This document shows positions 1 to 23,015 of a stretch of 24,007 nt of DNA, piece after piece. Positions within the stretch are counted from its first letter, which is position 1, and each line of letters starts with the position of its first letter. Position numbers and translations under genes: made by a program. The DNA comes from Bacteroidales bacterium (GTDB lineage Bacteria > Bacteroidota > Bacteroidia > Bacteroidales > F082). Where the stretch lies: assembly GCA_016285355.1 (NCBI GenBank), contig JAEEQP010000056.1:1-24007 (forward strand). Direction: 5' to 3'. A model generated the notes under the pieces. The model worked only from the letters and a program-made list of their open reading frames with translations. It had not been told where the DNA came from and made no database searches.

Positions 1-650
1 TTGGCGTTTTTCCAATAGTCGAGGATGGCGTCGACACCAAGACCAAGATTGCCAAAATACTGTGAAGTGCCACTATATCCCACCACAGGGTCGGCAGTGC
101 CGTGAATGTGGAGCAACCGCACAGGAGCCACTGGTGTATAGTTAGCCATAGAATGCGTAATCAGCCCACTGACAGGAGCACAAGCCGTGATGCGATTGCC
201 ATACTCGATGGCAATGCGGTGGGTCATGAAACCGCCCATGGAGAAGCCTGTAAAGAACACACTGTCGAGATTTAAATTATACGGTTCGGCCAACGAATCG
301 AGCAAAGCCATCAAAAAGCCTGAATCATCTGTGTTGCTTGGGTTTAAGCCCGCATTCCACATGGTTCCCGAGCCTTCGTCCAAGGCTTGTGGGATAACGA
401 TAGTCCAGCCAAACTCATTCGCAACCTGTTGGAAATGAAACTCATTGTCCACATGGGTAATGTTGTCGGTCCATCCATGCAAGAAATACAATACAGGCAT
501 GGTCGTTTTTTCGGTTTGCTGCGGAGCTCTCACAAGGTATTGCCGTTGAACGCCTTGCCATTCAAAAGTCTGGATTTGCGCAAAAAGCGATCCGCAAAGC
601 ATTAGCAAAAAAGCTAAAGCATTGATTTTTAGTAAGTTTTTCGATTTCAT
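1..650 (-). CDS. Secreted esterase, polyhydroxybutyrate depolymerase/LpqC-like (3' end outside window)
   Basis: Reading leftward from the ATG at 648-650, the frame is open for 216 codons and runs off the window edge, so the C-terminus is missing. It begins with a signal peptide (MKSKNLLKINALAFLLMLCG...LFAQ). An alpha/beta-hydrolase core follows: an oxyanion-hole segment LYFLHGWTDN near residue 55, the nucleophile elbow GFSMGG near residue 137, and a late HIHGTADPVVGY segment carrying the likely catalytic Asp. The catalytic His would lie in the missing part or near the window edge. The family (COG3509, feruloyl esterase/PHB depolymerase-like) hydrolyses ester bonds outside the cytoplasm, often in polysaccharide or polyester breakdown. 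The actual substrate cannot be read from the sequence. It is transcribed divergently from the sigma operon at 755. The fold assignment is firm; the substrate is open. Confidence 0.85.
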   Translation of the reverse strand, partial: MKSKNLLKINALAFLLMLCGSLFAQIQTFEWQGVQRQYLVRAPQQTEKTTMPVLYFLHGWTDNITHVDNEFHFQQVANEFGWTIVIPQALDEGSGTMWNAGLNPSNTDDSGFLMALLDSLAEPYNLNLDSVFFTGFSMGGFMTHRIAIEYGNRITACAPVSGLITHSMANYTPVAPVRLLHIHGTADPVVGYSGTSQYFGNLGLGVDAILDYWKNA

Positions 651-679
651 AGTAATAAGAGTTATTAGATTATTTCTGG

Positions 680-687
680 CAAAGATA
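680..687 (-). promoter_or_regulatory. -7 promoter box for the esterase gene
   Basis: The minus strand reads TATCTTTG, a full match to the Bacteroidota -7 consensus TAnnTTTG, 29 bases upstream of the esterase ATG. No clear TTTG -33 box is seen at the usual 19-21 base spacing, so the call rests on the -7 box and its position. Confidence 0.6.
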
Positions 688-754
688 CACTTTTTCTGCA
701 AGAAGTGTAAGATTTCGGACTTTATTGCGATAGTATTACAAACGAACGAAAACG

Positions 755-1249
755 ATGACGATTGAGGAATTCAAACGAGACATCCTACGCCTGCAACCGC
801 TCATGCAACGGACCGCCGAAAGCATTATCGGCAACCCCGACAGTGCGGAAGATGCCGTTCAAGAAACCGTCATCGCACTATGGAAGCAACGCGCAACGAT
901 AAAGGAAAGCAAAGATTTGGAAAGGCTCAGCCTAACCATCGTCAAACGCCGTAGCATCGACCAAGTCCGCAAAGAAAAACCATTACTATCCATAGATGCG
1001 GAAAGCCTGATGCTAACTGAACCGCCTCAAGACGATTTGGAAGAACGTTACCAACTGGCGCGAAAACTCGTTGACCAACTCCCTAAGCGTCAGCGCGATG
1101 CCATCCTGATGAAATACGAAGACGGTCTCAGTAACGAAGAAATCGAAAAGGCAACAGGAATGAGCCGAACCCATCTCTATGCCACCCTCTCTCGGGCTTA
1201 TACAACACTAAGAAACGCTATCGAACAACACAAAAACGAACTACCATGA
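755..1249 (+). CDS. ECF-type RNA polymerase sigma factor
   Basis: 164 aa, usual length for an ECF sigma factor. Region 2 spans roughly residues 10-75: the helix with DSAEDAVQETVIALWKQR matches the region 2.2 core-binding signature, and KRRSIDQVRKEK lies where the -10-recognition helix sits. Region 4 spans about 100-158: LPKRQRDAILMKYEDGLSNE, then a helix-turn-helix EEIEKATGMSRTHLYATLSR. It would direct core polymerase to a small set of target promoters. The start at 755 has no competing upstream in-frame candidate. The stop overlaps the start of the next gene by four bases (ATGA), so the two are translationally coupled. That neighbour is a membrane protein, as expected of a sigma/anti-sigma pair. 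No clear promoter of the TAnnTTTG type was seen in front of it, which would fit autoregulated transcription (inference). Confidence 0.93.
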   Translation: MTIEEFKRDILRLQPLMQRTAESIIGNPDSAEDAVQETVIALWKQRATIKESKDLERLSLTIVKRRSIDQVRKEKPLLSIDAESLMLTEPPQDDLEERYQLARKLVDQLPKRQRDAILMKYEDGLSNEEIEKATGMSRTHLYATLSRAYTTLRNAIEQHKNELP

Positions 1250-2064
1250 AAGAAGAAAAAGAACGCAACGACGACCTCAAGCAACTGCTTGACGCATTGG
1301 AAGAACACGGTCGCAATACACGTCGGCAGGCACAACTCAGTGACTTGATTGACAGCCTGGAAGCATCGGGCACGTCATTACGAGGAGGAACGACGAAGCA
1401 ATCCAGACATGAAGCTACATCACAAAGTAGTGCATCAACTTCCGCTAAAACCTCATCTCTGGATTGCTTCGTTCCTCGCAATGACGGAAAACAACACAAA
1501 CTTTACTCATTATGGTGGGCCATGTGTGCAGCAGCAGCATGTCTCTTGCTTTGGCTGCTTGTCAAACCTACAACGAAACAGATACCTGAAATGGAGGAGA
1601 AAAACCTTGTAGAAAAGGTGGAAGCCACAGATTTCATGAAAGTTGAAGAGAAGGATGTCGTCATCGAGGAGCCTGTTGTCAAGGAAGAACTCTTGGCAGA
1701 GGAAATGCCTGCCGTTCCCCAAAAAACACCGACAAAGGTGGGAAAGCCAAAAATGAAAGTTGTGGAAGAAAAGACAGAAGAACCCATTTTGGCCGAAGTA
1801 ATCCCTACAAAGCCAGCCAAATCCACTGATACTGAAAACATTGAACCCAACACTATACCCGCCGTGAACGAAACACCTGCTGACAATCAAAAACCCCAGC
1901 GGAGAGTCATCCGGAGCCTCAACCTGGTGTGCTATGAATGTCAGAAAGACCCAGAATACGAATTTGCGACAAAACCCAACATGGACAACAAAACCCTTTT
2001 CGGCCAGCCGCAAGACCCGAACATGAAAAACGGATCGCTGGCCTTTGAAATCAAACTCTATTAA
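1246..2064 (+). CDS. Single-pass membrane protein, putative anti-sigma factor with periplasm-spanning linker
   Basis: 272 aa, no recognised domain family. Residues 1-42 are charged and helical (cytoplasmic). Residues 43-80 are encoded by an inserted palindromic repeat (see 1373-1486). Residues 88-107 form one hydrophobic helix (LWWAMCAAAACLLLWLLV). About 110-235 is a long low-complexity stretch rich in Glu, Lys, Pro and Val, resembling the extended linker of TonB. The C-terminal 35 residues contain a CxxC pair (CYECQK) and end in FEIKLY. The coupled sigma gene upstream and the topology (short N-terminus inside, long part outside) suggest an anti-sigma factor. The linker looks able to cross the periplasm toward the outer-membrane protein encoded 11 bases downstream. 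The anti-sigma role is inference from context. The ATG is fixed by the overlap with the sigma stop. Confidence 0.8.
   Translation: MKEEKERNDDLKQLLDALEEHGRNTRRQAQLSDLIDSLEASGTSLRGGTTKQSRHEATSQSSASTSAKTSSLDCFVPRNDGKQHKLYSLWWAMCAAAACLLLWLLVKPTTKQIPEMEEKNLVEKVEATDFMKVEEKDVVIEEPVVKEELLAEEMPAVPQKTPTKVGKPKMKVVEEKTEEPILAEVIPTKPAKSTDTENIEPNTIPAVNETPADNQKPQRRVIRSLNLVCYECQKDPEYEFATKPNMDNKTLFGQPQDPNMKNGSLAFEIKLY
1373..1486 (+). repeat. In-frame palindromic repeat inside the membrane-protein gene
   Basis: The left arm 1373-1407 and right arm 1458-1486 are inverted copies. Aligned, they differ by two 3-base gaps and one substitution, with about 50 bases between. The arm core is the well-known dispersed bacterial repeat starting CGTCATTNCGAGG and containing ACGAAGCAATCC. 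The whole element is 114 bases (38 codons), and it encodes LRGGTTKQS at one end and LDCFVPRND at the other, peptides that recur in unrelated proteins of genomes carrying this repeat. All length differences between the arms are multiples of three, so the host frame stays open. It lies in the cytoplasmic part of the protein, just before the membrane helix. Confidence 0.85.
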
Positions 2065-2075
2065 ATCTTAGAACT

Positions 2076-3383
2076 ATGAAACGCATCACATTTTTATTAG
2101 CCATTTTGTTTGCAACTCAAATGGCCTTTGCGCAAGAGGAAGTTGCCATCGAGCAAATCATCAACCAGCGCATCAACAAATTGGAAATCAACCCTGGATG
2201 GGATGTCCATCTTATTCATCATGAGGCTGACAGCGGTTATCGTGTCGCCATCATCACCGATGATGATCTGGCAGCACGTGCCTACAATGTGCAACTCTGC
2301 AACGTCAAAGACCAGACCTTGACCATACTTGAAAACACCCAACTCCCAAAAGGCACCGTGGTGGAGATTGAAGGGCCTATGAACTTATGGCAAATCGGTC
2401 TGTTGGACAGGGCAACGGCAAAAGCGGATTATGTAATAGCCTCCGCGGCATCCGCACCGAAGGATTTGACCAACCTCTTCCTTGCTCGAAATTCAAGTTT
2501 TCATGTCCAGCATTATTACATCCCCAATCCCGACAACTCACCCAGCATGGATGTTTGGGATAGGTCGAAGTTAATCATTGATACCATTACGGGGAAAGGA
2601 GACATTGCTGCGGAGACCTACACCGATGCCGAGTTTCAAATTTCCACCAACCATCTTGAGGGGAAAATCTCATTGATCCAATGGGAAGACACTCCCGTCA
2701 GGCACTACCAGCACAAGGATTCGAGAATTATCAAAACCAAGCAGGTTGATGGCGAGTGGGTGACCTCCGACCATAGAAAGGTTTGGAACGATGCCATCCA
2801 CGTTGATGCTTCCTTTGGCTACCGCATGGGCACCAATCCAACGAATGCTAACAGCCCCCTGCTGAATAATGGAACGCTGTCGATCAACCTTGGGCTAAGC
2901 ACTTATTTCCAGCTTGGCAAACGTTTGGGCTTGAGGACTGGCATCCAGTGGAATACCGACAACAAATTCTTGAGCCATCAGGTGAAATACGAGGACAACG
3001 CCTTGGTGGTGATTGACGGACAAGAGGATTTTCAGCGCAATCGTTTGAAGAACAATTATGTAGGCATTCCGATTTCCTTGGACTATTACCTTGGCCGACA
3101 ATCAACTGAGAGCTTCTCCTTGGACTTCTACTGTGGTTACCTCATGGGTGAACTGTTTTCGACCAGCATTGACCCCACCAAGCTGATTGGCTTTAAAAAC
3201 TGGAACAGAGAAAAAGTCGATGGCATCTTCAATCCCTGGAAGATGGAAGTCGGTCTCAGCTTCAACACCCAACATTTAGGCTTCTTTCACGGCATTAGGG
3301 TCTTCACTAATCTCCTGCCCGAGTACAAGCCTGGCGTTACGACAGATAAAGTCAGGAGCGTCGGAGTCGAAATCAAACTCTGA
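2076..3383 (+). CDS. Outer-membrane beta-barrel protein of the sigma operon
   Basis: 435 aa. Residues 1-19 form a signal peptide ending AFA before QEE. Residues 20-150 are beta-rich and resemble the N-terminal part of GIN/DUF2807 adhesin-head proteins, with alternating hydrophobic strands and short polar turns; this likeness is weak. From about residue 240 to the end there is a PorT/OmpA-like succession of amphipathic strands with tight turns (HVDASFGYRMG, SINLGLSTYFQLG, GLRTGIQWNTDN, NYVGIPISLDYYLG, MEVGLSFNTQHLG), finishing VGVEIKL. It follows the membrane protein by 11 bases and is surely cotranscribed with it and the sigma factor. Possible roles are a surface sensor feeding the sigma switch or the main output of the sigma factor. 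The sequence does not separate these. No close family name can be given. Confidence 0.85.
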   Translation: MKRITFLLAILFATQMAFAQEEVAIEQIINQRINKLEINPGWDVHLIHHEADSGYRVAIITDDDLAARAYNVQLCNVKDQTLTILENTQLPKGTVVEIEGPMNLWQIGLLDRATAKADYVIASAASAPKDLTNLFLARNSSFHVQHYYIPNPDNSPSMDVWDRSKLIIDTITGKGDIAAETYTDAEFQISTNHLEGKISLIQWEDTPVRHYQHKDSRIIKTKQVDGEWVTSDHRKVWNDAIHVDASFGYRMGTNPTNANSPLLNNGTLSINLGLSTYFQLGKRLGLRTGIQWNTDNKFLSHQVKYEDNALVVIDGQEDFQRNRLKNNYVGIPISLDYYLGRQSTESFSLDFYCGYLMGELFSTSIDPTKLIGFKNWNREKVDGIFNPWKMEVGLSFNTQHLGFFHGIRVFTNLLPEYKPGVTTDKVRSVGVEIKL

Positions 3384-3418
3384 CAAAGAATTACAAATCA
3401 GTTTATGAAACCCATGAC

Positions 3419-3512
3419 GGCCCTTCGACCCTTCGAAGGGCCTCAGGGACCGCAAGCTCAGGGACCTTTGCTTTCACTGAAGTTAAAGGGGCCTGAGCCT
3501 GTCGAAGGCCCC
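3419..3512. repeat. Composite palindromic repeat cluster between convergent genes
   Basis: This stretch is built from pieces of one dispersed repeat whose full unit reads CCTTCGACAGGCTCAGGG. 3421-3451 holds a degenerate forward unit containing the perfect palindrome CCCTTCGAAGGG (3429-3440). 3456-3466 repeats CTCAGGGACC, and 3488-3512 is a complete unit in reverse orientation. The outer parts can pair to form a long hairpin. It sits between the converging ends of the beta-barrel gene and the acetyltransferase gene, so a hairpin here could also end transcription from either side (inference). The remaining bases of the 190-base gap hold nothing else recognisable. Another copy of the unit is at 22961-22982. 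Confidence 0.8.
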
Positions 3513-3573
3513 GGCAGATGTAAACCGAGTCTGTTGTGATTTGGTTTTTCGTTTTGCGACAAAGGGCTAACGT

Positions 3574-4095
3574 TCAAGAAAGCCTCTCCCATCGCATCAC
3601 GCGCGTCGGTTTTGTCGTACCGGTCAGCTTTTCATCCACGCAGGTCTCGCCTGTGGGTACGAAACCGCATTTTTCCATCACTCGCCCTGAAGCTGGGTTG
3701 TCATAGTAATGGCTGCTAATCAGTGATTTGATGTCGGTCGTCTCGCGGATATGCTCAAGCATCACCCTAAGTGCCTCCGTGCAGATGCCTTGGTTCCAGT
3801 AGGGTCTGCCTACCCAGTAACCCACCAATGGCTCACCCTCGCGTGAGGGAAGATCGCTTTCGTGCGTTGGCATATATCCAATCGCACCGATGGCCTCGCC
3901 TGTCGCTTTTAGTTCGATGGCCCAATTGGTGTCATTATTAAAAACGGTGCGGATGATTTCTAAACTCTCTTCCACACTTTTATGTGGCGGCCAGCCTGCA
4001 CGAGGGCCCACATCGGGGTCACTGGCATATTTGAACAAGGCCTCGGCATCACTTTCGCGCCAAGGACGAAGTAGTATTCTTTCGGTTTCCATCAT
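3574..4095 (-). CDS. GNAT-family N-acetyltransferase (RimJ/RimL type)
   Basis: 173 aa from the chosen start, usual for the family. It opens METERILLRPWRESDAEALF, the typical first strand and helix of RimJ/RimL-like acetyltransferases. The acetyl-CoA pyrophosphate loop is in GYWVGRPYWNQGICTEAL (N-Q-G-I-C in place of the common R/Q-x-x-G-x-G/A). The late NPASGRVMEKCGF segment is the family's conserved region for CoA and fold closure. It transfers acetyl from acetyl-CoA to an amine on a protein, peptide or small molecule; the substrate is unknown. The open frame continues upstream to 4185, but the promoter box at 4130-4137 lies inside that extension and the family signature begins at METERI. The start is therefore 4095, or the adjacent ATG at 4092. 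The gene is monocistronic. Confidence 0.9.
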   Translation of the reverse strand: MMETERILLRPWRESDAEALFKYASDPDVGPRAGWPPHKSVEESLEIIRTVFNNDTNWAIELKATGEAIGAIGYMPTHESDLPSREGEPLVGYWVGRPYWNQGICTEALRVMLEHIRETTDIKSLISSHYYDNPASGRVMEKCGFVPTGETCVDEKLTGTTKPTRVMRWERLS

Positions 4096-12284: not shown

Positions 12285-12424
12285 AGATTCCCTTGCAGGG
12301 AATGGAGTTGAGATATAGTTTATTAGGCGGCGGCATGAACAAGTTGACTATTCGTAAGCTCCACAAGCCGCCGCATGTAAAAAAACGAGCAGACTCCATT
12401 CCCTGCAAGGGAATCTCAACTTGT
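12285..12424. repeat. Nested inverted-repeat element, MITE-like
   Basis: A perfect 24-bp inverted repeat pairs 12285-12308 with 12393-12416. Each arm contains TTCCCTTGCAGGGAA, itself nearly palindromic. Inside, GCGGCGGC (12327-12334) pairs with GCCGCCGC (12367-12374). ACAAGTTGA (12339-12347) can pair with TCAACTTGT (12416-12424), an alternative to the outer stem, and GTTGAGAT (12307-12314) with ATCTCAAC (12413-12420). No transposase and no clear target duplication were found. It fills most of the 294-base gap between the minus-strand genes ending at 12447 and starting at 12152. The remaining gap sequence holds a ribosome-binding region but no convincing promoter box. Small open frames across it follow from the palindromes and are not genes. 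Confidence 0.8.
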
Positions 12425-13467: not shown

Positions 13468-14196
13468 TTATCCGATAACAAAACTCCTCGGATAAAAATC
13501 GCTATAGAAGCGGCCATCCGTGGCGGTGAACTTCAGAACGCAGTAATTCGGGTCAGTCACGCCACCGGGGTAATACTGCTCGTCGCCCTCGCGCCAAATC
13601 ATCTCCTTGCTCTTGGCATCGGTCAGCACCTCCATCGTGCCACGCAGCATCATGCCCTTGAAACCTTCTCCGTCACAGAAATAGATACTGGCCTTGGGGT
13701 TGGCTTTGTAGTGGGCCACCCGCAGCGAAAAGGTGTTGGTGGTGAAGTAGAACACCTTGATGCCCTCTCGGACACGCGGCGACAGCATAGCTTTTGTGCA
13801 AGGATAGCCATCTTCATCCACCGATGAAATCATAGTAACAGGCAAGGTATCAGCCATTTGTGCAATAAGGTCTTTAACGCCCGCCAAAGCAGGGTTTTCA
13901 GGCATGGCATCGTCGGTAACCTTCATGGCTTGGCGCCAGCGTTTCAAATGCGGGAAGTACATCTTCATCTGGCCAATGTATTCCTCTTTCGTGATGGGTT
14001 GCGGCAGGCCCTTGTTGACCTCATCGACAAACTGGGCGCAATGCTCAATCATTTCGTCCATCGTGCAGTCTTGCAGGAATTTGCCATCTTTGTAGCAATA
14101 CATGCAATATTCTTCGTTCTTGCTGCCGTCGGCATTGGTGCCGAGGACTTCATTCGTGAGCGGCATTCCGCAGCTCTGACAAAATTTTTGTTCCAT
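13468..14196 (-). CDS. Zinc-ribbon domain fused to pyridoxamine 5'-phosphate oxidase-family domain
   Basis: 242 aa in two parts. Residues 1-90: a zinc ribbon with CQSCGMPL and CMYCYKDG (two CxxC pairs about 19 residues apart), followed by a conserved helical tail (DCTMDEMIEHCAQFVDEVNK). Residues 95-242: a split-barrel flavin-binding fold of the PNPOx/general-stress-protein-26 type (TLPVTMISSVDEDGYPCTKA, VFYFTTNTFSLRVAHYKANP, SIYFCDGEGFKGMMLRGTME, ending DFYPRSFVIG). Such proteins bind FMN or F420-like cofactors and are linked to redox stress; the reaction is unknown. A separate copy of the first half is encoded at 18207-18482. The gene is divergent from the M28 peptidase. Confidence 0.9.
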   Translation of the reverse strand: MEQKFCQSCGMPLTNEVLGTNADGSKNEEYCMYCYKDGKFLQDCTMDEMIEHCAQFVDEVNKGLPQPITKEEYIGQMKMYFPHLKRWRQAMKVTDDAMPENPALAGVKDLIAQMADTLPVTMISSVDEDGYPCTKAMLSPRVREGIKVFYFTTNTFSLRVAHYKANPKASIYFCDGEGFKGMMLRGTMEVLTDAKSKEMIWREGDEQYYPGGVTDPNYCVLKFTATDGRFYSDFYPRSFVIG

Positions 14197-18206: not shown

Positions 18207-18482
18207 TCACTTTTTCCACCGTTTTAGCGTCGGGAAATACTGCCTCATCATGCCCTTGTACTCGTCCTTGGTCATGGGTTTGGGCATGTTCTTGTTGACC
18301 TCGTCCACAAACTGGGCGCAGAATTCAATCATCTCGTCCATAGTGCAGTCGTTTGTGAAGGCTCCGTCCTTGTAGCAATACATGCAATAGTCTTCGTTTT
18401 TGCTGCCATCGGCATTGGTGCCAAGCACTTGATCATTCAGAGGCATTCCGCAACTCTGACAAAATCTCATTTCGTTTTCCAT
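18207..18482 (-). CDS. Stand-alone zinc-ribbon protein
   Basis: 91 aa. FCQSCGMPL and YCMYCYKDG supply two CxxC pairs for one zinc. The helical tail DCTMDEMIEFCAQFVDEVNK and the ending QYFPTLKRWKK follow. It matches the first 90 residues of the zinc-ribbon/PNPOx fusion at 13468-14196 at most positions, including GTNADGSKNE, but lacks the second domain. The frame stops cleanly after the shared part, so it is a family member and not an obvious truncation. ATGs at 18482 and 18470 are both possible starts. A consensus promoter lies 60 bases upstream. It heads a probable operon with the symporter. The function of this ribbon family is unknown. Confidence 0.88.
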   Translation of the reverse strand: MENEMRFCQSCGMPLNDQVLGTNADGSKNEDYCMYCYKDGAFTNDCTMDEMIEFCAQFVDEVNKNMPKPMTKDEYKGMMRQYFPTLKRWKK

Positions 18483-21080: not shown

Positions 21081-21138
21081 TGCACGAAATCGGTCGCAGA
21101 GTAGTTGTTTTTGCTATATTAACGACCGATTTCGTGCA
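21081..21138. repeat. Perfect 16-bp inverted repeat upstream of the DUF234 ATPase
   Basis: TGCACGAAATCGGTCG (21081-21096) is exactly inverted as CGACCGATTTCGTGCA (21123-21138), with a 26-base AT-rich centre. No T tract follows on either strand, so it is not a classic terminator. It may be a regulatory dyad or the scar of a mobile element. The rest of the 310-base gap (21011-21320) holds the promoters of the two flanking genes; 21139-21255 shows nothing recognisable. Confidence 0.8.
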
Positions 21139-21320: not shown

Positions 21321-23015
21321 ATGAAAAACATCATCAAAATTGCTTTTGTCCTTGCCCTGCTTTTCGGGGCCAAGGCTTTTGGACAAGAATGGGAATACAT
21401 AGTGGAGCACACGGACAATGATAGCCCATGGCTGAAAGATCCCATACCCTTGCAAGGTGGCAACATCGCTGTTCCTTATACTACTTTTTACTCAGGTTCC
21501 ACTTCCCAACTTGGTTCGAAACAGCCAGGCATGCTGATTCTCTCATCGGATGGGGAAGAACTAACAAGAAAAAGTTATCTCAAGCCTGCATTTTGGGGAC
21601 ATTCCCCATATCTGCTTTCAGATGACGAAGGAGCGATGTATATGCTGGTCGACTACAATCCCGACCACGATACCACCATCGCCAACTATTTCATGAACTT
21701 CGACAATCCGCCTGACTATTCCATTCTCGGCTTGTATGAATTGGACGAGAACTTTTCCATCGTAGAAAGCTATGAACATCAAATTCCCATAGACACTTTC
21801 AGTTGCCCTGAAACCGACAATTCATTTGGCTCACACAATGAATATTGCGGTAGCATCTATGTCTTTTCGGCTATCGTCGATGACAATACCATTGTGGGCG
21901 GATATATGAAGACACCTACCTCAGACTATTTCAATCCTCGTGGACACGACAGCGTCTTTTTCTTCAGGATGGGTTTTGATGGGACGCTCATCCATAGGAA
22001 AGGGTATGACTTGGACTATGGCATATATGGATGGGGTGGCAATTTTAACTGGTCAAATAGTTTAATGGGCCACGACATCATGAAAACAGACGAAGGAATC
22101 GTTTTCTTTTATGACGAACAATATCCTATTGCTTTTGATGCAGCAAATGGGAAGGAAAAGATGCAGAATCCAGGCCATGCCTTCTTTTTGGATTACGATT
22201 TCAATCTAATAGAGGAAAAACGCTACGAACAACGTCCTGGACTTCCACACAATTATTTCCAATACTCCACTTACGTTCCCAGCCGTCACAATTCGGTATA
22301 CTTGTCTTGTAGCTATCATAAGAATGCTACTGGTGGAAAAACAGGATGTGCTCTATATGAGTACGGTCTTAATGCCGACAGGGTGAACACGCTGCCAACC
22401 CTGCGTTACATTGAAAGAACATCCAGCGGTTGGGACTTCACAGCCCAACGAAAAGGTACTTGTGTGGATGCCGACAACACCATATATTTTGCCTATTCAC
22501 TGAATGATGGCCTTGCGGGGATGACCATAGAGCATCTGGATCCTGATTTCGATATCATCAGGACTTTGTACTATGATCTAAGGCCGTATTTCCAACCGTG
22601 CGAACATATTGTCCAAACTGTTGAAGTTGACGAAAACGGTGATTTGTTGTTGACTTTCAATTCGTACAACGCAGACAATTTGGCACAACAATGGTCGACC
22701 ATCACCAAATTCCCCGCCGAGGCTTTTGTAGGCATCGACGAAGCCCACAACAACGGCCTGAAAGTGGCCATTGCCTATCCCAATCCGGGGAAGGACGTGC
22801 TAAATATCAGGACAGGATTGAAGGATGCGCGGTTGGAGGTATATGATATGAGTGGAAGGATGGTTTATAGGCAAGAGATTATGGAGAATCTGACTTCGAT
22901 AAATACTGAAGGGTGGCCTGCGGGGGCTTATGTTTGGAAGGTTTATACTTCTTATGGCGGCCCTTCGACAGGCTCAGGGACCTTGGCGGAAATGGGAAAA
23001 TGGATTAAAGAATGA
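21321..23015 (+). CDS. Secreted protein with T9SS type A C-terminal sorting domain
   Basis: 564 aa. Residues 1-21 are a signal peptide (MKNIIKIAFVLALLFGAKAF). About 22-475 is a large beta-rich region, probably a propeller-like or lectin-like body, without a recognised catalytic motif. About 480-564 is a Type IX secretion sorting domain: VAIAYPNPGKDVLNI, ARLEVYDMSGRMVY, WPAGAYVWKVYTS and a closing GKWIKE. Proteins of this type cross the outer membrane by the T9SS and are fixed to the surface or released. Residues 547-554 (GPSTGSGT) derive from a palindromic repeat inserted near the end of the sorting domain (22961-22982). The gene has its own promoter and is followed by another secreted protein. 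The role of the body is unknown. Confidence 0.88.
   Translation: MKNIIKIAFVLALLFGAKAFGQEWEYIVEHTDNDSPWLKDPIPLQGGNIAVPYTTFYSGSTSQLGSKQPGMLILSSDGEELTRKSYLKPAFWGHSPYLLSDDEGAMYMLVDYNPDHDTTIANYFMNFDNPPDYSILGLYELDENFSIVESYEHQIPIDTFSCPETDNSFGSHNEYCGSIYVFSAIVDDNTIVGGYMKTPTSDYFNPRGHDSVFFFRMGFDGTLIHRKGYDLDYGIYGWGGNFNWSNSLMGHDIMKTDEGIVFFYDEQYPIAFDAANGKEKMQNPGHAFFLDYDFNLIEEKRYEQRPGLPHNYFQYSTYVPSRHNSVYLSCSYHKNATGGKTGCALYEYGLNADRVNTLPTLRYIERTSSGWDFTAQRKGTCVDADNTIYFAYSLNDGLAGMTIEHLDPDFDIIRTLYYDLRPYFQPCEHIVQTVEVDENGDLLLTFNSYNADNLAQQWSTITKFPAEAFVGIDEAHNNGLKVAIAYPNPGKDVLNIRTGLKDARLEVYDMSGRMVYRQEIMENLTSINTEGWPAGAYVWKVYTSYGGPSTGSGTLAEMGKWIKE
22961..22982 (+). repeat. Palindromic repeat unit inside the T9SS sorting domain
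   Basis: One full unit of the repeat family seen at 3419-3512, containing CCTTCGACAGGCTCAGGG, lies in frame near the 3' end of the T9SS cargo gene. It encodes GPSTGSGT, which interrupts an otherwise normal end of the sorting domain. Confidence 0.8.

Follow-up and report, generated by a model that had tools for sequence, protein, structure and literature searches.

Does the palindrome that lies inside the reading frame of a putative anti-sigma factor gene in a Bacteroidales bacterium represent a dispersed repeat that was inserted and is now read as protein, and what would allow it to stay there? The stretch of DNA analysed, called the window throughout, is 24,007 nucleotides long. The gene that holds the palindrome is flanked on both sides by recognisable neighbours:

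755 to 1249, forward strand: ECF sigma factor gene (Pfam Sigma70_r2, 8.9e-11; Sigma70_r4_2, 8.1e-12)
1246 to 2064, forward strand: 272-residue single-helix membrane protein, putative anti-sigma factor and host of the element (open reading frame, 757 homologues, gene order)
1249 to 1365, forward strand: predicted cytoplasmic helix, residues 2-40 (AlphaFold2 model)
1495 to 1563, forward strand: predicted membrane helix, residues 84-106 (AlphaFold2 model and sequence)
2076 to 3383, forward strand: downstream outer-membrane beta-barrel-like gene (Pfam OMP_b-brl_2; conserved order)

The ECF sigma gene overlaps the next start codon (1246) by 4 nt. Each of the 36 related loci had a sigma gene upstream; 33 of them also showed the barrel gene, and the other 3 ended at that point. 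The OMP_b-brl_2 match of the barrel gene had an E value of 7.2e-06 and scored 26.6 bits against a cut-off of 27. The 272-residue protein itself showed no Pfam or NCBIfam match, hence no recognised anti-sigma domain. The name putative anti-sigma factor, which an earlier note on this DNA had proposed, therefore draws on gene order and topology and gained nothing from the domain searches. The AlphaFold2 model of the protein was of low confidence overall (mean pLDDT 48), with blocks of 64-77 over residues 1-40 and values below 50 for linker residues 47-77. In this low-confidence model the predicted helices flank the element, in keeping with its proposed position between a cytoplasmic head and the membrane helix.

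The element consists of two CGTC-ended units in opposite orientation around a core:

1373 to 1486, forward strand: captured palindromic element, 114 nt or 38 codons' worth, an imperfect inverted repeat
1373 to 1404, forward strand: left CGTC unit (CGTCATTACGAGG..GCAATCC, 32 nt), of a unit type dispersed in relatives
1405 to 1460, forward strand: variable core of 56 nt, differing in sequence among element carriers
1461 to 1486, reverse strand: right CGTC unit, inverted, the reverse complement of CGTCATTGCGAGGAACGAAGCAATCC (26 nt, 6 nt shorter than the left)

The palindrome had been described as 38 in-frame codons without a stop, and its coordinates and its length of 114 nt proved exact. The host frame does run through it without a stop codon, yet three of the six reading frames across the element are open, the host's own included, so that an open frame alone is weak evidence for coding use. 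Both ends of the element read CGTCATT...GCAATCCAG, that is, a CGTC head and a tail fitting CCA. Folded as RNA, the whole element reached -48.2 kcal/mol (z -8.45), a value that 0 of 200 shuffles attained, and single units, folded as DNA, were no more stable than their shuffles (z -0.81 to 0.02). A 5-bp ATTGC/GCAAT stem with at least 10 nt between its strands forms in two of three unit types, and the third folds otherwise. An Rfam search of window positions 1-4000 gave only a chance match to MIR408 (18.4 bits against a gathering score of 64).

An exact empty site was found in locus L016, which reads GGTA/CAAAGCAGCGCAAG where L189 reads GGTA/CGTC...GACG/CAAAGCGACGCAAG (slashes mark the boundaries). 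The insertion in L189 is bounded exactly by CGTC and GACG and is followed by CAAAGC, as in L016 (GGTA/CAAAGC), with no target duplication visible at the insertion point of this pair. We then compared linkers among protein homologues, taking the best 120 of 757 (E values up to 10) ranked by likeness to the element-bearing query; P0111, which has no linker, was dropped. By peptide pattern, 90 of the 119 linkers cut from these listed homologues contained the CGTC element, 26 were unrelated and short, and 3 were exact empty sites; because of the ranking, the share of 90 in 119 should not be taken as a frequency in the population. Among 40 genome loci (36 related ones and 4 picked from the 53 genomes matched by tblastn, with L117 dropped as a duplicate of L030), the CGTC element was present in 7 and a different repeat in 2, while 30 held an unrelated short linker and 1, L016, was exactly empty.

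The absence of residues 43-80 from homologues, which the earlier note had predicted, was thus seen in 26 + 3 of the 119 listed, and among the homologues we saw no distant ones with conserved non-repeat residues 43-80, the outcome that the note had named as contrary to its claim. With an empty site in L016 and no element in close relatives, the element is an insertion. Element-free alleles mostly carry an unrelated linker (EEKTV..PRK) and not the exact empty site, so that many presence/absence changes look like replacement of a segment and not like clean gain or loss.

The in-frame element would be an artefact of assembly or annotation if the repeat had misjoined two contigs or if the real start codon lay downstream. 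Metagenome assembly does break at repeats, and an in-frame start further on could in principle exist. However, the same arrangement recurs in 90 of the 119 homologue clusters listed and in 7 of 40 further genome loci, residues 1-40 are conserved, the start overlaps the sigma stop and the flanks match the empty site; we regard an artefact as very improbable.

Dispersal was measured with a unit pattern that demands conserved ends. The pattern occurred in 10 of 10 related ruminant Bacteroidales genomes, with 1-66 matches each (66 in G002, 43 in G005, 41 in G003, 23 in G001 and 1-13 in the other six), and the reversed control gave 0 in all 10. The counts refer to metagenome assemblies of relatives; the window's own genome is represented by the 24-kb stretch alone, which contains a single copy of the element (1373-1486). 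By this pattern the CGTC units are dispersed repeats in related ruminant Bacteroidales, as had been claimed for the palindrome. Inverted dimers often pair units of unlike subtype, the window's included. In G002, where 53 element sites were read in 45 stretches fetched around listed unit matches, 29 of the 53 are +- pairs, that is, inverted dimers with CGTC outward. A flank motif, CRAAGC, taken as RAAGC at 0-2 nt outside the CGTC end, accompanied 69 of 126 distinct unit ends against 1% at random positions, the motif having been found and counted on the same data. It is present in several anti-sigma carriers, the window's own right flank does not fit it, and it could reflect target choice or be part of the element.

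Genes for Y1 transposases numbered 24, in 8 of the 10 genomes. None of these 24 Y1_Tnp loci had a unit pair within about 1.5 kb, and two of the genes lay, by coordinates, 1.6-1.7 kb from units. In plasmid records the search gave nothing beyond a 30-nt unit match, found in 6 cyanobacterial records. A selfish nature of the element is plausible, though no transposase gene was found within about 1.5 kb of a unit pair. Long-core dimers were also considered as a form confined to coding sequence; this was rejected, for a long-core copy in G103 lies outside any open frame of more than 70 codons. One contig of G105 (C20) holds five long-core CGTC dimers in about 9 kb (L123 and L129-L132), four of them within 1.1 kb.

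The presence of the element varies among close relatives. On a tree of 116 rows, built without the linker and with 44 of the 90 CGTC homologues, P0111 and L117 left out, the CGTC state changes 30 times (bootstrap 29-31), and at least 16 changes are forced by supported branches. Shuffled labels on the same tree gave 38.6 changes on average, so the state is somewhat clustered, yet far from one origin. Comparison of protein pairs confined the differences between alleles with and without the element to one tract:

1318 to 1527, forward strand: tract in which element-plus and element-minus alleles differ (residues 25-94), from the window protein with P0010 and from P0001 with P0017; identical or nearly so outside

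The compared parts of the window protein and the element-free P0010 are alike except at residues 25, 26, 29, 37, 39 and 94, with the linker between. P0001, which has the element, and P0017, which has none, differ at the same six residues and additionally at residue 144. All four combinations therefore occur at the protein level, with both linker alleles on both C-terminal backgrounds. Recombination of the linker tract is the simplest reading of this mosaic of proteins. The mosaic could partly be assembly error, the relatives being metagenome assemblies, though the same tract recurs in two pairs.

We consider it highly probable that a CGTC-tagged, REP-like inverted dimer was inserted in the putative anti-sigma gene, is read as a linker and has spread by recombination. 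The dimer would have entered between the codons for Thr43 and those for the juxtamembrane basic residues, with no visible target duplication, and would be translated as a 38-residue, probably disordered spacer that links the cytoplasmic head and the membrane helix. Its persistence would be explained by a length divisible by three, an open frame and a linker tolerant of length change, with a near-neutral effect on the protein. Homologous recombination of the linker tract would then carry the presence or absence of the element from strain to strain and between species. An adaptive version of this scheme, in which cells gain by swapping linkers of differing length and composition and the repeats are the raw material, would also account for linker alleles that recur on two backgrounds, for the 16 or more CGTC changes needed by the tree and for the filling of the same site by different repeat families. 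Neutral tolerance together with recombination would give the same picture, however, and we think such a tunable spacer unlikely. The natural allele pairs with and without the element on the same background make an old question testable, namely whether such repeats alter the protein or sit in it harmlessly.

The earlier note had expected further in-frame copies, and these were found in related genomes, in PPDK-like, Dus, TilS, U32/TrhP, HemW and IleRS genes. In a tblastn search of the window protein over 173 genomes of the family, of which 53 matched, window residues 33-80 were matched inside frames of 1,412-1,445 amino acids in five genomes. This host is PPDK-like, with PPDK_N and PEP-utilizer domains. 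Of 19 aligned PPDK-like loci, selected so that both states were represented, 10 had the element and 9 did not. In one of the 10, that of G106, the frame stops 33 codons past the element and the remainder lies in a separate 1234-aa frame. The G131 assembly has two PPDK-like copies, L098 (C17) and L184 (C21), one with the element and one without, which may be paralogues or come from mixed strains.

Seven of the 53 element sites of G002 lie in genes backed by families or aligned homologues: the anti-sigma-like protein twice, the PPDK-like gene, Dus, TilS, U32/TrhP and HemW. The other 46 are intergenic or unresolved. A subtilase of G002 with the element before its domain is a probable host, as is a DUF3987 protein in G137. 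A single CGTC unit lies in frame in IleRS of G111 (L106, C48), at a point where the closest solved relative has a 13-residue gap. Which frame of the repeat is read varies from host to host. Among 16 element matches outside the anti-sigma gene, 8 were in long frames or recognised genes, the one in G106 being truncated, and the other 8 lay in short frames or were interrupted by stops. TilS, HemW and the anti-sigma-like protein provide examples of elements within linkers, given here as examples and not as a measure of enrichment. As a side observation, Dus, TilS, TrhP and IleRS all act on tRNA, which may be due to chance. The anti-sigma-like protein at L018 (G002, C10) contains a second, single CGTC unit in frame in its periplasmic part (3482-3507, LLRSARND).

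In the PPDK-like gene the arms of the element are more alike than their surroundings. The flanks had 0.318 and 0.386 synonymous differences per comparable codon pair, the left arm 0.057 and the right arm 0.147, in a comparison of seven PPDK-like sequences whose pairs are not independent. Codons invariant at the nucleotide level made up 14 of 16 usable codons in the arms and 24 of 94 in the flanks (Fisher p 3.7e-6; six sequences of this gene that share descent, without L103). The keeping of the arms at synonymous sites suggests upkeep at the level of DNA in the PPDK-like gene, whether by conversion from dispersed copies, by repeated re-insertion or by selection on the hairpin.

Selection on the hairpin leads to a different account of the window, in which the hairpin and not the peptide is kept: as a fold of the sigma/anti-sigma mRNA, or as a cruciform extruded from the DNA, it would adjust how the downstream portion of the operon is translated or how stable that portion is. 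The strong fold of the whole element (z -8.45) fits such a role, as does the contrast in the PPDK-like gene between arms conserved at synonymous sites and a core whose amino acids are unlike in 71 of 180 pairs. Most of the examined loci with the operon nevertheless do without the element (of 40, 30 show an unrelated linker in its place and 1 is exactly empty), near-identical units, by a pattern that demands conserved ends, occur at many places unlinked to the operon, and elements are present in unrelated genes. A regulatory hairpin is thus improbable as the reason for the element in this operon, and the preferred reading remains that of an inserted dimer carried as a linker.

Several of the host sites hold other repeats in other genomes. 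The anti-sigma linker of L030 contains a TTTCCGTTTTCC palindrome that occurs 15 times in that genome, the site itself included (reversed control 0), and that of L006 a CTCTCCACT repeat for which 2 genome matches, the site itself included, against a reversed control of 1 argue weakly for dispersal. In TilS, the six aligned genomes comprise 2 with CGTC, 1 with a TCGAAGG repeat, 1 with a CTCAACT-like linker (L211), L212 with none of these, and L214, which resembles the linker of L211 in protein only. Dus has CGTC in G002 and L219 and a GTAGGGACGC-type palindrome in L216, with no clear repeat in L217, L218 and L220. The U32/TrhP site could be read in 19 of 30 loci, with CGTC in 2, a GTAGAGACGC/GTAGGGACGC-type repeat in 12 and others in 5; among 120 listed U32 homologues, 31 fit the site pattern, 8 with CGTC and 23 with another repeat. 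The PPDK-like protein has CGTC, and in other genomes a TCGAAGG-type repeat some 14 residues downstream.

The dispersal of these other repeats varied. The GTAGAGACGC palindrome occurred at 16 other places in the fetched loci and GTAGGGACGC at 4, L216 included (reversed control 0 for both). CTCAACTCTCAACT occurred at 5 places in the fetched loci but with a reversed control of 2, a weak indication of dispersal, and the TCAATTATCAATT and CCCCTCTCC repeats of the U32 site were found nowhere else in these loci. Of 8 genomes searched, 7 contained CCTTCGACAGGCTCAGG, six of them in 19-39 copies (reversed control 0). Several repeat families at one site suggest that the site, and not the repeat, decides what is kept. 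We see a not quite even chance that, in this Bacteroidales family, certain linkers in conserved proteins are landing sites for unrelated dispersed palindromes that enter, leave and replace one another, always in frame. Such sites would include the anti-sigma linker (CGTC, TTTCCGTTTTCC and possibly CTCTCCACT), TilS (CGTC, TCGAAGG and possibly CTCAACT repeats), U32/TrhP (CGTC and GTAGAGACGC), Dus (CGTC and GTAGGGACGC) and the PPDK-like protein (CGTC, with the TCGAAGG-type repeat a little further on). On the same tentative reading the cassettes would be exchanged by recombination and their arms maintained at the nucleotide level, and the repeats would be live and not fossils. This wider pattern, with several hosts and several repeat families, is of more interest than the single case.

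The closest known kind comprises the protein-coding palindromes of Rickettsia and Wolbachia and intragenic REPs. The former, in the passages of PMC2229807 that describe them, are 105-146 bp long, have terminal inverted repeats, are dispersed, lie in frame in conserved proteins and are apparently tolerated; a guanylate kinase bearing such an element (RPE) was active. The 114-nt palindrome is similar in its terminal inverted repeats, its dispersal in relatives and its in-frame insertion missing in homologues, so that the comparison with Rickettsia made in the earlier note holds as one of kind. It differs in phylum (Bacteroidota), in the several unrelated repeat families found at a single host site, and in the variation of that site between empty and filled from one close allele to another. 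The likeness to RPE families is one of description, with a link in sequence through the CGTC tag only; RPE-4 and RPE-6 are assigned to CGTC repeats in the relevant part of Di Nocera et al. (PMC3733652). Protein-coding palindromes are thereby extended from Rickettsia and Wolbachia to gut Bacteroidales.

The CGTC REP super-family, as outlined by Di Nocera et al. (2013; PMC3733652), has a CGTC head, a stem beginning with AT, a CC(A) tail, dimers (mostly head-to-head), intragenic copies and no dedicated transposase, with a stem of 8-9 bp and a loop of 4-5 nt in its definition. The elements described here share the CGTC head, the stem beginning with AT, the CC(A) tail, dimers and intragenic copies, and have no Y1 transposase within about 1.5 kb. 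In contrast, their units have stems of at most 5 bp and loops of at least 10 nt, so they are similar to CGTC REPs but fall outside the definition. G. forsetii is itself a member of the Bacteroidota. It is already listed among the CGTC carriers in that work, which in the sections concerned also reports intragenic CGTC and GTAG REPs from many species, includes a tRNA synthetase and a pseudouridine synthase among the hosts, and suggests that insertions in flexible linkers are possibly neutral (PMC3733652).

Enterobacterial RU-1/ERIC and Neisseria Correia repeats are mentioned in PMC2229807 as small mobile repeats with open frames inside genes and with target duplications. They are similar by description in placing a repeat in frame in a gene, and unlike the present element, for which no target duplication is visible. 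Coding palindromes are also described from mitochondria of Nematomorpha, as inverted repeats inside functional genes; there, in what is reported of them, the arms encode conserved protein regions, whereas here the insert is extra and optional. No earlier description in Bacteroidales was found in the open-access literature, nor any account there of unrelated repeat families reusing one site or of linker alleles being shuttled; searching that literature by sequence string is weak and missed even the known CGTC-repeat paper.

The window contains other repeats besides the element. At 22959-22984 lies GGCCCTTCGACAGGCTCAGGGACC, another dispersed repeat, in frame near the C-terminus of the ORF at 21321-23015 (GGPSTGSGT); intergenic sequence related to it is found at about 3418-3511, and Dus of three related genomes (L215, L216 and L217) also carries it in frame. 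Two perfect inverted repeats were observed, one of 24 nt at 12285-12416 (AGATTCCCTTGCAGGGAATGGAGT, 84 nt between the arms) and one of 16 nt at 21081-21138 (26 nt between the arms). A 250-nt direct repeat, 78% identical, at 13936-14185 and 18216-18465 corresponds to related N-terminal segments (FCQSCGMPL) of two separate genes.
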